A DNA stretch of 64,000 nucleotides from Panacibacter microcysteis (GTDB lineage Bacteria; Bacteroidota; Bacteroidia; Chitinophagales; Chitinophagaceae): NCBI RefSeq assembly GCF_015831355.1, contig NZ_JADWYR010000001.1:2480001-2544000 (forward strand), in the 5' to 3' direction. The notes beneath the pieces are model-generated. The model had not been told where the DNA came from and searched no databases. It saw only the letters and a program-made list of their open reading frames with translations. Below, piece by piece: positions 54,978 through 59,017 of this stretch. Both the position numbers and the translations under genes were made by a program. Position 1 is the stretch's first letter. Each line of letters opens with the position of its first letter.

Positions 54978-55036
54978 GCTGAAGAGTGCGACGCAACAGG
55001 TGTTGCCATGCATTCCAATGCCGGGCCCATAACATT
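54978..55036 (+). repeat. Interspersed intergenic repeat, type B (TTGAAG-like variant), forward
   Basis: Core at 54978-54999, reading CTGAAGAGTGCGACGCAACAG after the first base. The tail AATGCCGGGCCCATAACATT ends at the barrel gene stop. A CGCTTCATTCTTCGC motif precedes it. Confidence 0.82.
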
Positions 55037-55955
55037 AAAAACTAAAAGACACATGCACCATAAACCTGTCTTTTGCTTTTACCCTGTTGCCGGCCAGCGT
55101 TTGCGCCAGCGGAGATTGATAATTGCCACCGAAAGCAATGTTTTTGATATTGCATTCTACGCCTAAAATACCCATCATGCTGTAACCCCCGCTCTCGTCT
55201 ACAAAGTGTTTACGTGCATTCAGGTCTTTTTGTGCAGTCTCGTACATAATACCCGCGTTTGGTGCGATGGTTAGTTTGTTTTTGATGTTGAACTTATAGT
55301 AAGCAAGTACATTGCCTGTCAATTTATTGCCATAGCGGTAATCATATTTGTTTGCAGTATTTATTTTATAGCTGACGTTGGTGTTGATGCCTGCGTCCTG
55401 CAGACGCACATCATACATAGCATTGACCGTAAAATCAACACTGCCGGTGCCAAGCTGAAACGTATTTTGTGTGTTTTGAGCAATGTTGGCATCTGTAGGG
55501 TCGTAAGTTCCAACAGGCAGTTTGATGCCGCCACCTACCCAAAGCGACTGAGCAAAACGTTTGTCGCCAATTGTTTTTTGGCGGTCAAGTAATTTAAAAT
55601 AGCCAAGCACAGCAATATCTCCCATACCACTTTTCGATGTTGTTTTACCCTGGTTTAGCCGCTCGTTAAAGTTTACGGGAACAAAACCCATTATGCGAAA
55701 ACGCTTACCAATATTAAATGCACCCCACACTTCTGCAGTCTGGTATATTTCCTGGCTGGTAAGGTAACTTACACTTCCGTCTGCACTAATGTGTGTTGTT
55801 AATCCTTTGTGCTGGTACCGTAAGCCGATAAAGCGTTTTTTAAAATCGGGCAAAATACCCAGGTAGTAGCTGCCCACTCCGCAGCCGCAAATATCGCAGG
55901 CAAGAAGATTGCCGGCTACCAGTAACAATACTGTAAGCGTGATAATTTTTTTCAT
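55035..55955 (-). CDS. Outer-membrane beta-barrel protein with N-terminal CxxCxC motif
   Basis: 306 residues. Signal peptide MKKIITLTVLLLVAGNLLA is followed directly by Cys20 and the motif CDICGCG (Cys20, Cys23, Cys25). The rest shows alternating amphipathic strands (RFIGLRYQHKGLTTHIS, AEVWGAFNIGKRFRIMGFVPVNF, GDIAVLGYFKLL) ending in a terminal Phe (MVHVSFSF), the usual barrel signal. The Cys motif could bind metal, in keeping with its upstream neighbours MbnP, MbnH and YHS protein; this is inference. It is the last gene of that minus-strand series. Confidence 0.78.
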   Translation of the reverse strand: MKKIITLTVLLLVAGNLLACDICGCGVGSYYLGILPDFKKRFIGLRYQHKGLTTHISADGSVSYLTSQEIYQTAEVWGAFNIGKRFRIMGFVPVNFNERLNQGKTTSKSGMGDIAVLGYFKLLDRQKTIGDKRFAQSLWVGGGIKLPVGTYDPTDANIAQNTQNTFQLGTGSVDFTVNAMYDVRLQDAGINTNVSYKINTANKYDYRYGNKLTGNVLAYYKFNIKNKLTIAPNAGIMYETAQKDLNARKHFVDESGGYSMMGILGVECNIKNIAFGGNYQSPLAQTLAGNRVKAKDRFMVHVSFSF

Positions 55956-55959
55956 ATTT

Positions 55960-56021
55960 AATTAGTTGGTTACCGGCAACAGTAACACAGATTGAGCTCC
56001 TGTTGCGTCGCATTACGTTCA
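55960..56021 (-). repeat. Interspersed intergenic repeat, type B, reverse, decayed
   Basis: Core at 56000-56021: CTGTTGCGTCGCA is intact, the outer part is changed. The tail TTGGTTACCGGCAACAGTAAC starts 5 bases from the barrel gene start. Confidence 0.7.
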
Positions 56022-56030
56022 TCGTTCCGT

Positions 56031-56321
56031 TCAATGGTGAGCTTTGGCGCTCAGTGTTTTTACAAACTCATCTTTGCATTCCTTCGAGCAAAATCCATAC
56101 ACCTTACCCTCCACAATTGCAGTGTCTGCAATGCCCGCGCTCAGCGGCATACGGCAGGTAGTATCTCGCCGGGAAGCAAAAGTAACACGGCTGAAATCGG
56201 GATGTGCCGCAGTATCATGCGCCATATGCATACTGCTGTCTGCAGAAGCTGTGTTCTCCTGTACGGTATTACCGCAGGAGCACAATACCGTTGCAATCAA
56301 ATAAAGCATTGTCTTTTTCAT
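56031..56321 (-). CDS. YHS-domain lipoprotein
   Basis: 96 residues. The signal ends with a lipobox near ATVLCSC. A Met/His-rich stretch (SSMHMAHDTAAH) precedes a YHS/TRASH-like domain with Cys56, Met58 and a closing FCSKEC pair (Cys78, Cys82). YHS domains occur in copper- and other heavy-metal-handling proteins. The ATG overlaps the stop of the diheme cytochrome gene by four bases, so it is translationally coupled to it. Confidence 0.82.
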   Translation of the reverse strand: MKKTMLYLIATVLCSCGNTVQENTASADSSMHMAHDTAAHPDFSRVTFASRRDTTCRMPLSAGIADTAIVEGKVYGFCSKECKDEFVKTLSAKAHH

Positions 56322-57370
56322 TGTTCACTGAGTTTTTTGTCTCTTAAAAATTGTTCATCTGAAAGTGTATGCAGGAAAGCGATCAGTTGTGTTTTTTCAG
56401 CCGGTAGCAATGGTATTCCAGGTGTACCGTTTTGCTTAAGTAAAGGGTCAAGCGTTGGGCTGTCTGCCATACCGCTGCTATAATGGTCCAATACCGCTTC
56501 AAGTGTAAAAAGCCTCCCATCGTGCATGTAGGGTGGCGTATTGGCCACATTGCGCAGGCTGGGTGTTTTAAATTTGTACATGTCTGCCGGGTTCAGCGTT
56601 ATTTTAAACCTGCCGCTGTCATTCACTATTGTTGGCACCAGCCCGTTGTTGTGAAAATCATTATCTGTAAAAAGATCGGTGCTATGGCAACTGCTGCATT
56701 TTTGCTGAAATATTTGCATACCCGCCTTCTCATCTTCCGTAAAGGTTTCGCCTTCGTTGCGCACATATTTGTCGTACCTCGAGTTCGCGCTGATGCACTG
56801 CAACATGAACTGAGATAATGCTTTCAGCATATTGCCGCTGGTAATTTCACTGCTGCCAAATGCCTTACTGAATAGTTGCCTGTAAGCTGCACTGGCATTT
56901 AATTTGGCAAGCACATTGGGCATGGTTTCACCCATCTCTACAGGATTTTCAATTGGTGCTATCGGCTGCAGGTCCAGGTTGAATACTCCGCCATCCCAGA
57001 AAAAGCTGGTATACCAGCCAAGGTTCATAATGGGTGGTGAGTTACGTACACCCACTTTATCATTGATGCCATGGCTAACCTTATGACCATGTTGTGTAAA
57101 TGCGCTGCCCTGTATGTGGCAAAACCCACAACTGATGGTATTGTCGGCAGATAATATAGGATCGTAAAACAGCTTTCTGCCCAGCATAAAACCTTCTTCC
57201 GTTATGGGGTTAGCCGAAAGATCGTAAACAAGCGGTGGAAAGTTAGCAGGCATCACCAAAGGCATTGCCTTTGGTGATGTGCTGTCGTTTTTGTTACAGG
57301 CAGTGATTAATATGGCACAGCCTGCTATCAGCGCCGCATTTTTCAGCAATGGCTTTATTATTCTAGTCAT
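56318..57370 (-). CDS. MauG/MbnH-like diheme cytochrome c peroxidase family lipoprotein
   Basis: 350 residues from the ATG at 57370; a further ATG at 57379 is possible. The lipobox LITAC gives Cys25. Two heme c sites are present: CGFCH (81-85) and CSSCH (225-229), with MauG/CCP-family segments FYDPILSADNTISCGFCH and FKTPSLRNVANTPPYMHDGRLFTLEAVLDHY. In methanotrophs MbnH oxidises a Trp of its partner MbnP to form a copper site; the gene directly upstream encodes an MbnP-like protein, so that role is likely. The name of the symbol is withheld because there is no methanobactin locus here. It overlaps both neighbours. Confidence 0.88.
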   Translation of the reverse strand: MTRIIKPLLKNAALIAGCAILITACNKNDSTSPKAMPLVMPANFPPLVYDLSANPITEEGFMLGRKLFYDPILSADNTISCGFCHIQGSAFTQHGHKVSHGINDKVGVRNSPPIMNLGWYTSFFWDGGVFNLDLQPIAPIENPVEMGETMPNVLAKLNASAAYRQLFSKAFGSSEITSGNMLKALSQFMLQCISANSRYDKYVRNEGETFTEDEKAGMQIFQQKCSSCHSTDLFTDNDFHNNGLVPTIVNDSGRFKITLNPADMYKFKTPSLRNVANTPPYMHDGRLFTLEAVLDHYSSGMADSPTLDPLLKQNGTPGIPLLPAEKTQLIAFLHTLSDEQFLRDKKLSEQ

Positions 57371-58160
57371 TGTGTACATGGTCTATTCTGAACATGTTTG
57401 CGTAATTGTTGGCAATGTTTACCGAGTAGTCGTTAAACATTACCATGCTGTTTGCTGCAATGCTTACATTGGTAGTGCCATCAAGCACTTTTTTTGCATC
57501 AATAAGTAAATGCATGTCGGGTGTAATGTCTTTTCTTACGGTAGCTTTTCCGCCTGCGGGTACCGTAAGCGAAATGGTTTTGATATTGTTGATGGTAGCC
57601 GAACTGTAACCACCAAAGCCACCGATGTGGTACATATAATCACCCATTGCAGATGCTGAAGATGTACCTTCCATTTTCAAAAAGATATAGCCGCTGTTCC
57701 AGCTCCAGTACATATCTGCGCCACCGGCTGCGGGGTCCAGCACACCGGTACGTTCCTCAACAGGCGCTGTACATTTCAAACTGTCAATACCAACAATAAA
57801 CCTTATGCCGGTATAATTGCCTGCGGGCACATTTTCAAGTTCAACCACATGCGTTGCCTCGTTATCTTCTTCCACAAGGAAGTAACTCTCATCTTTCGGA
57901 ACAGTATATTCAGACCCGTTTTCATTGAGCAGAACAATGTTGCTTATATAGTAGTTGAATTTTGTTATGTTATAGGTTTCACCCACAGCATTCGTATATG
58001 CTGCCGTGTTAAGTACCAGGTCTGCATCGCCTGCTACATTATCAAATTCAATCCCGATGCCGCCCTTGTCTGTAGCAGAAAAATCCGGCGTGTTACTTTC
58101 TTTTTTACAGGAAAACATAAGTATGGTTAGCGCCACAGCAATAACAGGTAATTTTTTCAT
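57363..58160 (-). CDS. MbnP-like copper-binding lipoprotein
   Basis: 265 residues from the ATG at 58160 (MKKLPVIAVAL); 57 upstream codons in frame cross a repeat and are rejected. The lipobox is MFSC (Cys18). The beta-rich body carries the family pattern: GIGIEFDNVAGDADLVL, NYYISNIVLLNENG, DMYWSWNSGYIFLKMEG with two conserved Trp, MYHIGGFGG, and VPAGGKATVRKDITPDMHLLIDAKKVLDG, ending in HVHND. In studied members one Trp becomes kynurenine by the action of MbnH and allows Cu binding. It overlaps the MbnH-like gene by 8 bases (ATGACTAG). Confidence 0.87.
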   Translation of the reverse strand: MKKLPVIAVALTILMFSCKKESNTPDFSATDKGGIGIEFDNVAGDADLVLNTAAYTNAVGETYNITKFNYYISNIVLLNENGSEYTVPKDESYFLVEEDNEATHVVELENVPAGNYTGIRFIVGIDSLKCTAPVEERTGVLDPAAGGADMYWSWNSGYIFLKMEGTSSASAMGDYMYHIGGFGGYSSATINNIKTISLTVPAGGKATVRKDITPDMHLLIDAKKVLDGTTNVSIAANSMVMFNDYSVNIANNYANMFRIDHVHND

Positions 58161-58277
58161 TGCAAAATTTTTATGGTGTGTTTTGTTGTTCTTAAATAGT
58201 TGTATGCAGTAATCATTCATGCCCGGTACAGATAAAGCATGTACAAAGGCTCCGCTTTGTTCAGAAAAGTTCCTGCC

Positions 58278-58336
58278 GTTGAAGAGTGCGACGCAACAGA
58301 AGTTTAACCAGGGTACAAGAGCCGGGTTCATAAATA
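58278..58336 (+). repeat. Interspersed intergenic repeat, type B (TTGAAG variant), forward
   Basis: Core at 58278-58299, preceded by AAAGTTCCTGCCGTTGAAG. The tail GAGCCGGGTTCATAAATATT overlaps that of the next copy. Confidence 0.82.
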
Positions 58337-58392
58337 TTTATTTACCGGCTGTTGATACTTTCATCAGCTCCTGTTGTGTCACTCACTTGTAC
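58334..58392 (-). repeat. Interspersed intergenic repeat, type A, reverse
   Basis: Core at 58371-58392, exact. The tail TTTATTTACCGGCTGTTG meets the tail of the preceding forward copy: the only tail-to-tail pair without a gene in between. Confidence 0.85.
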
Positions 58393-58458
58393 GCTTTCGC
58401 CCTGGTCAGCAGCGATGCTGCATGTAGTCATCGTTGCGGGCATAGTCTCTGTGATCAG

Positions 58459-58602
58459 TTATTTTAACAGTTGTATGAACCTGGTGATGTTATCATATTG
58501 CAACCATATCATGGTGCCGATAACAATTACAAGCAGCACATTTACACGTATGCGTACTTTGCGCAGCGCATCAGGATCACGCCAATGATACTGACGTGTC
58601 AT
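58459..58602 (-). CDS. Small single-helix membrane protein
   Basis: 47 residues from the ATG at 58602 (MTRQYHWRDPDALRKVRIRV). A basic N-terminal half is followed by one hydrophobic segment (VLLVIVIGTMIWLQY) and a short tail ending FIQLLK. The frame is open 38 codons further upstream. It lies between the Cys-rich secreted protein and the MbnP gene on the same strand. I recognise no family and rate it as probable, not certain. Confidence 0.5.
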   Translation of the reverse strand: MTRQYHWRDPDALRKVRIRVNVLLVIVIGTMIWLQYDNITRFIQLLK

Positions 58603-58645
58603 AGAAGATTTTTTTTGTTGATAGAAATTGGTTGAACGAATGGTG

Positions 58646-59017
58646 TTAACCAATACAGGGAGGATGAAAGATTGCTGATGAGCGGTGTATGGGTTTGCCC
58701 TCATTGTAAACAGCAAATTGCTGCAATGATTCCTGTGAAACGATGGTTACTGAAGGGTAAAAATTTTTGGAAGAAATTACTTCGAGTTTGTTTTCTGCTT
58801 TTCTATCCGGGTTAGACTGATCTTTTTTGCCCTCGCTGTCTATTTTTTTTACCATCTGGCAATGACCGTTACAATGAAGCTGCGGTTTGTCTTTGTTTTC
58901 GCAGTTTGCAGCAAACACAGTGGTATTAAGGTAATAGTCTGCAACAATAACAGCATTGCTGAATGTCTGCATCATAAAAATGACCAACATGAAGCTTGCT
59001 ACTACCTGTTTCAACAT
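58646..59017 (-). CDS. Small secreted Cys-motif protein (CNGHC family)
   Basis: 123 residues from the ATG at 59017 (MLKQVVASFMLVIFMMQTFSNAVI, a signal or membrane anchor). The motif around Cys39, Cys49 and Cys53 (NCENKDKPQLHCNGHCQMVKKI) recurs in small Bacteroidota proteins, as I remember the family, and could bind metal. The rest is charged, then beta-like. It heads the minus-strand series that continues to MbnP and MbnH, which supports a metal-related role; this is inference. Confidence 0.65.
   Translation of the reverse strand: MLKQVVASFMLVIFMMQTFSNAVIVADYYLNTTVFAANCENKDKPQLHCNGHCQMVKKIDSEGKKDQSNPDRKAENKLEVISSKNFYPSVTIVSQESLQQFAVYNEGKPIHRSSAIFHPPCIG

Follow-up and report, generated by a model that had tools for sequence, protein, structure and literature searches.

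A candidate copper-sensing leader ahead of an MbnP/MbnH-type gene pair in Panacibacter microcysteis and other Bacteroidota

Copper sensing and import are little known in Bacteroidota. In a 64,000-nt stretch of the Panacibacter microcysteis genome (contig NZ_JADWYR010000001.1, positions 2,480,001 to 2,544,000; the window below), one tight run of minus-strand genes, from 59017 down to 55035, encodes an MbnP-family lipoprotein, an MbnH-like diheme protein and an outer-membrane barrel, and opens with a 123-aa protein carrying CNGHC. All genes named in the initial annotation, including the CNGHC protein upstream on the same strand, were present. What does this small protein do, and does the run handle copper? 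We consider it probable that the run is an MbnPH operon for copper acquisition, independent of methanobactin and under the control of a copper-sensing arrest-peptide leader. Judged from its sequence, the CNGHC protein (the leader below) probably has a regulatory role, as a leader that would sense copper while still a nascent chain, and is unlikely to be one more copper protein of the pathway. The gene arrangement recurs across the phylum and is not chance. We also lean slightly towards a wider proposal, in which copper-sensing arrest peptides with F[H/R]PP instead of RAPP, and with no detectable relation to DUF2946, would control copper acquisition throughout Bacteroidota, including MbnP/MbnH with its cognate CDICGCG channel and systems of TonB receptor and PepSY.

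Anatomy, spread and genomic company of the leader family

No Pfam or NCBIfam model matched the leader family. Of 80 genomes from the same taxonomic family, 59 had relatives, as did 118 of the 296 Bacteroidota genomes sampled, and a probe made from the N-terminal half found them in 136 of 247 genomes of the class. Members start with a hydrophobic N-terminus of export type, which is followed by CxNxxxP...CxGxC and a variable middle; F[H/R]PP usually comes near the end, 1-5 residues ahead of the stop. The hydrophobic stretch was seen in all members of the alignment. Conservation reached 3.3-4.3 bits at the key residues of CxNK, CxGxC and FHPP, and fell to about 0.5-1.0 bit in the columns between. 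PP lay inside the last 8 residues in 94 of the 99 members, compared with 8 of 848 control open reading frames (ORFs), and its distance from CxGxC was 66.35 +/- 1.97 residues (range 62-73, n=97). The C-terminal motif was FHPP in most members and FRPP, SPPP or others in the rest; RAPP near the C-terminus is not the motif of this family.

Circularity was checked with an N-terminal-only profile, from which the C-terminus was left out, run on further genomes. Among its 41 new members, PP was within the last 11 residues in all 41 and within the last 8 in 37, against 0 of 155 controls for the last 8. The enrichment of PP as an artefact of a profile containing the C-terminus was therefore rejected. 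Membership of DUF2946 was also rejected, since none of 31 members matched PF11162 at E 1; DUF2946 is rare in Bacteroidota and found at other loci than the leader family. Two DUF2946-like, His-rich small proteins of Bacteroidota (L205:1399-1794 and L209:1492-1851) end in LRGPPSYFLAV and SRAPPLS, and leaders of the RGPP/RAPP type may, by these sequences, occur beside the FHPP family in the phylum.

Neighbourhoods were counted over the fetched loci, with 99 leader members and 33 MbnP genes. The leader mostly precedes copper-linked genes. The next gene, defined as the following same-strand gene of at least 85 aa, encoded a TonB receptor in 33 loci, MbnP in 20 (21 when the window is counted, where a small transmembrane gene intervenes), a barrel in 17, a YtkA-like lipoprotein in eight and SCO in one, while other recurrent partners followed in a few. 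The median gap to the next gene was 101 nt. A TonB receptor together with PepSY_TM was seen behind the leader in relatives.

The MbnP/MbnH-type pair and its neighbours

The MbnP-family protein scored 180.6 bits against PF20243 (E 4e-53, cut-off 27). A single-sequence search of the PDB gave no useful match. For the AlphaFold model (pLDDT 89), solved MbnP (7L6G) was the only fold match below E 1e-3, and the family profile also retrieved 7L6G. The WSWNSGY stretch contains the WxW copper-site motif, and its first Trp (W152) was invariant in 24 of 24 aligned relatives. Position 150 was Met in 19 and position 178 His in 18 of these 24 sequences. Manesis et al. (2021) reportedly found that the first Trp of WxW is converted to kynurenine and that one His and one Met belong to the Cu(I) site. 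The identification as MbnP is solid by the PF20243 score, the 7L6G fold match and the invariant first Trp. The ORF spans 57363-58331; translation most likely begins at its ATG at 58160, with a lipoprotein signal, MKKLPVIAVALTILMFSC.

A scan of named genomes with MbnP gave matches in Chitinophaga, Ferruginibacter and unclassified Bacteroidota. A second MbnP-MbnH pair is encoded in the same genome (L007:7450-9344; G000:C1:2810449-2812343), 34% and 44% identical to the first, with no leader, barrel or YHS gene adjoining. At another locus (L118:5513-8047), three consecutive MbnP-family genes stand behind a leader and a barrel, and two of them carry WFG in place of WxW.

The MbnH-like protein, whose gene overlaps mbnP by 17 nt, contains two CXXCH motifs and matched PF03150 with E 7e-54; its nearest solved structure was MbnH 6E1C. 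W128, E148 and Y300 fall at MauG/MbnH-type positions of the alignment. W128, the Trp between the hemes, was conserved in 19 and Y300 in 18 of 21 aligned sequences. The axial position holds Tyr (Y300), as in 6E1C, and not Met as in classical cytochrome c peroxidases. With two CXXCH, the inter-heme Trp and Tyr instead of Met, the protein falls in the wider MbnH/MauG-like diheme class. The overlapping MbnP-like and MauG-like lipoprotein genes of the initial annotation were confirmed.

MbnH followed MbnP for 28 of the 33 MbnP genes, and for 16 a barrel then came within the next two genes. This order also occurred in distant Bacteroidota families (L157, L158, L166, L167 and L189). In most relatives the barrel stood directly after MbnP-MbnH or a DUF2911 lipoprotein lay in between. 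The expected conservation of the neighbourhood was thus borne out for the barrel, and that of the YHS gene was not. The latter is coupled to mbnH here (4-nt overlap) and followed by the CDICGCG barrel, as first described, and its product has a weak match to Pfam YHS (23.9 bits, cut-off 30.3) and a Cys pattern common to its relatives in other leader loci. Only at this locus is the gene placed between MbnH and the barrel; elsewhere it follows the barrel or MbnH, in a few loci. We rejected it as a core part and regard it as a local insertion, which also turns up near leader-barrel units in a few other genomes. For the barrel model (pLDDT 81), the best structural matches were FapF and a COG4313 channel, with TM (template modelling) scores of about 0.6-0.7 and 12-15% identity. 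The gene at L109:2337-3452, placed between those for leader and MbnP, codes for a secreted protein of 372 aa that has CCTAGSCC close to the N-terminus and differs from the usual barrel.

Of the methanobactin-independent copper pathway proposed in the initial annotation, the MbnP/MbnH-type pair, the conserved Trp and the conserved neighbourhood including the barrel were upheld, outside any methanobactin operon seen. Copper as the right metal for the pair is supported by homology and by the neighbours in relatives, SCO, TonB receptor with PepSY_TM, and YtkA. The genome has clients for copper, because it encodes two heme-copper oxidase subunit I genes.

The features of the run are listed in Table 1. 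A DcuC-type transporter is encoded upstream on the same strand. The gap from leader to mbnP is 485 nt here, and the next ORF follows the leader at 43 nt. Unannotated relatives of the small transmembrane protein (47-49 aa) lie between leader and mbnP at L087:10995-11153, L100:3311-3520 and L119:3551-3823, and a further one near a leader in L088. A dispersed repeat with the core GAGTGCGACGCAAC has 13 copies in the window (0 expected), for example at 1741, 5010, 5277, 43608, 54984, 58284 and 60753, and by BLAST the part of the leader-mbnP gap that surrounds the 58284 copy had 43 more partial matches in the genome.

Table 1. Genes of the putative copper-acquisition run (positions in the window)
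Feature	Position	Strand	Remarks
Leader (CNGHC protein), 123 aa	58646..59017	-	without Pfam or NCBIfam model; N-terminus hydrophobic and of export type; metal motif CENKDKPQLHCNGHC, followed after 65 residues by the PP of IFHPP-CIG-stop
Small single-transmembrane protein, 47 aa	58459..58602	-	MTRQYHWRDPDALRKVRIRV...; between leader and mbnP
MbnP-family lipoprotein, 265 aa	57363..58160	-	predicted copper site M150, W152, W154 (MYWSW), H178
MbnH/MauG-like diheme lipoprotein, 353 aa	56318..57379	-	CGFCH 84, CSSCH 228, W128 (FFWDG), E148, Y300
YHS/TRASH-like lipoprotein, 96 aa	56031..56321	-	...TCRMPLSAGI...GFCSKECKDEF; weak Pfam match, relatives in other leader loci
Outer-membrane barrel, 306 aa, predicted FapF/COG4313-type channel	55035..55955	-	N-terminal (A)CDICGCG; predicted mature N-terminus CDICGCG

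Proposed control and its alternatives

We infer stalling, copper sensing and the sign of regulation as follows. When extracytoplasmic copper is scarce, the ribosome making the leader would stall on the C-terminal FHPP, at which point CxGxC, about 66 residues back, would already be beyond the ribosome tunnel and the Sec channel, and the stall would keep the downstream genes expressed. When copper is plentiful, Cu(I) would bind CxGxC of the exported nascent chain and relieve the stall, and downstream expression would fall, with the same sign as in CruR of Bordetella pertussis. This sign is preferred because the genes downstream of the leader are of the acquisition type. MbnH would then oxidise the first Trp of the MbnP WxW to kynurenine, completing a Cu(I) site on the lipoprotein, while the barrel would serve as outer-membrane channel and the YHS lipoprotein as accessory metal carrier.

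The CNGHC protein could instead be an ordinary small membrane-anchored periplasmic copper chaperone, first in copper operons by chance, with FHPP as a docking tag or part of the fold. Its plausible Cu(I) motif, export-type N-terminus and constant company of copper genes would suit such a role. Against it, the near-invariant PP mostly stands 1-5 residues ahead of the stop, the residues after it are not conserved, and its distance from CxGxC is nearly fixed over a weakly conserved middle; the genes that the leader precedes, those for TonB receptor, MbnP, barrel and YtkA, are also unrelated. The layout is that of known or proposed arrest leaders (PMC9426467, PMC9973294), and we regard the chaperone as unlikely. 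Rather unlikely as well is the opposite sign, by which copper binding would cause stalling and switch the operon on, and the cluster would serve copper tolerance or storage. CutF of Rhodobacter capsulatus has that sign, and like the leader it has CxxxC and not CXXC (PMC9973294). Against this sign, relatives carry acquisition-type genes behind the leader (TonB receptor with PepSY_TM, SCO), and not oxidases or efflux pumps. MbnPH of methanotrophs, too, is part of copper-starvation operons.

A different job for the MbnP/MbnH-like pair, for instance as a peroxidase with its partner or with another oxidised residue, copper being incidental, appears improbable. It would agree with the NCBIfam equivalog scores, which were below cut-off for both proteins (TIGR04052, 48.1 bits against 140 for MbnP; TIGR04039, the best model for MbnH, 226.6 against 362.85), and with the two Cys of MbnP, one of them in the lipobox, where the four-Cys motif of the TIGR04052 type is absent. 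It would leave unexplained the 7L6G fold, the invariant first Trp, the Met and His at the aligned positions and the copper-linked neighbours in relatives. Because both scores are below the equivalog cut-offs and MbnP is without the four Cys, the proteins are, by sequence, best called MbnP-family and MbnH-like, outside the strict NCBI equivalogs.

Besides these scores, several points weigh against a copper-acquisition operon under leader control. Leader regulation and copper response are drawn from the conservation pattern, position and analogy, and FHPP differs from RAPP/RGPP, the motif shown to arrest ribosomes. Seventeen of the 99 leaders lie <50 nt behind a same-strand gene, and not all are clearly first in the transcript. 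As to a downstream switch (Rho terminator or anti-start hairpin), 83 gaps behind leaders were compared with control gaps. The two sets did not differ in folding z-score or in C/G composition, neither RNA structure nor C-over-G skew was in excess, and no distinctive RNA switch was found. The leader-mbnP gap of P. microcysteis also holds the small gene and a copy of the dispersed repeat; control would therefore act first on the small gene.

Comparison with known systems

The pair resembles MbnP/MbnH of Methylosinus trichosporium OB3b (7L6G, 6E1C) in fold, WxW, the adjoining diheme partner gene and the Tyr and Trp at MauG-type positions. In contrast to OB3b, it does not lie in a methanobactin operon, has no four-Cys motif, is below the NCBI equivalog cut-offs, and is preceded by a leader and followed by the CDICGCG barrel. 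FapF/COG4313 channels are the nearest solved folds of this barrel, but its N-terminal ACxxCGCG and copper-operon setting are not known features of them.

By analogy, the leader is built like CruR and CutF, the copper sensors of proteobacteria that act as nascent chains, minus DUF2946 and RAPP. CruR, a DUF2946 protein, is likewise a small exported first-gene product with a Cys metal motif and PP a few residues before the stop; the leader differs in lacking a DUF2946 match, in CxGxC instead of CXXC, FHPP instead of RAPP, a spacing of about 66 instead of 45 residues, and occurrence in Bacteroidota. In CruR, copper binding to the nascent-chain CXXC relieves the arrest at RAPP and leads to Rho-dependent termination (PMC9426467, PMC9973294), and arrest was demonstrated in vitro (PMC12992588). 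In the copper-uptake operon cruR-crtA-crpH of B. pertussis, which has been studied by experiment, a TonB receptor and PepSY_TM likewise stand behind the leader (PMC12914433, PMC13038864), and MbnPH-like genes were reported behind CruR homologues (PMC9426467).

With CutF and CutF-like proteins the leader shares CxxxC, C-terminal PP, length under 150 aa and a downstream copper gene, and its hydrophobic N-terminus may be of the Sec type as theirs is. In P. microcysteis it agrees with the length, PP and neighbour criteria that PMC9973294 uses for CutF-like proteins (<150 aa, PP inside the last 15 residues, a same-strand gene within 1,000 nt downstream): it has 123 aa and PP 3 residues from the end, with the next ORF at 43 nt and mbnP at 485 nt. 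According to PMC9973294, copper bound to the CxxxC of R. capsulatus CutF slows its export, and a hairpin that covers the next start is opened; this CutF regulates a multicopper oxidase, with a sign opposite to CruR. The same source lists 5,334 CutF-like proteins, about 19% (40% normalised) from Bacteroidota, and this bulk list probably contains members of the leader family. This kind of leader is already known in silico. The text of that paper does not describe the Bacteroidota members singly and reports no FHPP, fixed spacing, or MbnPH or barrel link; in the literature searched, the supplement of PMC9973294 excepted, no mention was found of F[H/R]PP, of the fixed spacing or of a phylum-wide link to MbnP-MbnH-barrel and receptor-PepSY genes. 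If the proposal is true, copper-acquisition operons throughout the phylum could be recognised by the leader, and shared regulation would tie orphan Bacteroidota MbnP/MbnH pairs to copper. A survey of 2025, by another group than that of PMC9973294, reports RAPP/RGPP copper leaders from many phyla and none from Bacteroidota (PMC12992588), a gap that the leader family would then fill with a different stalling motif.

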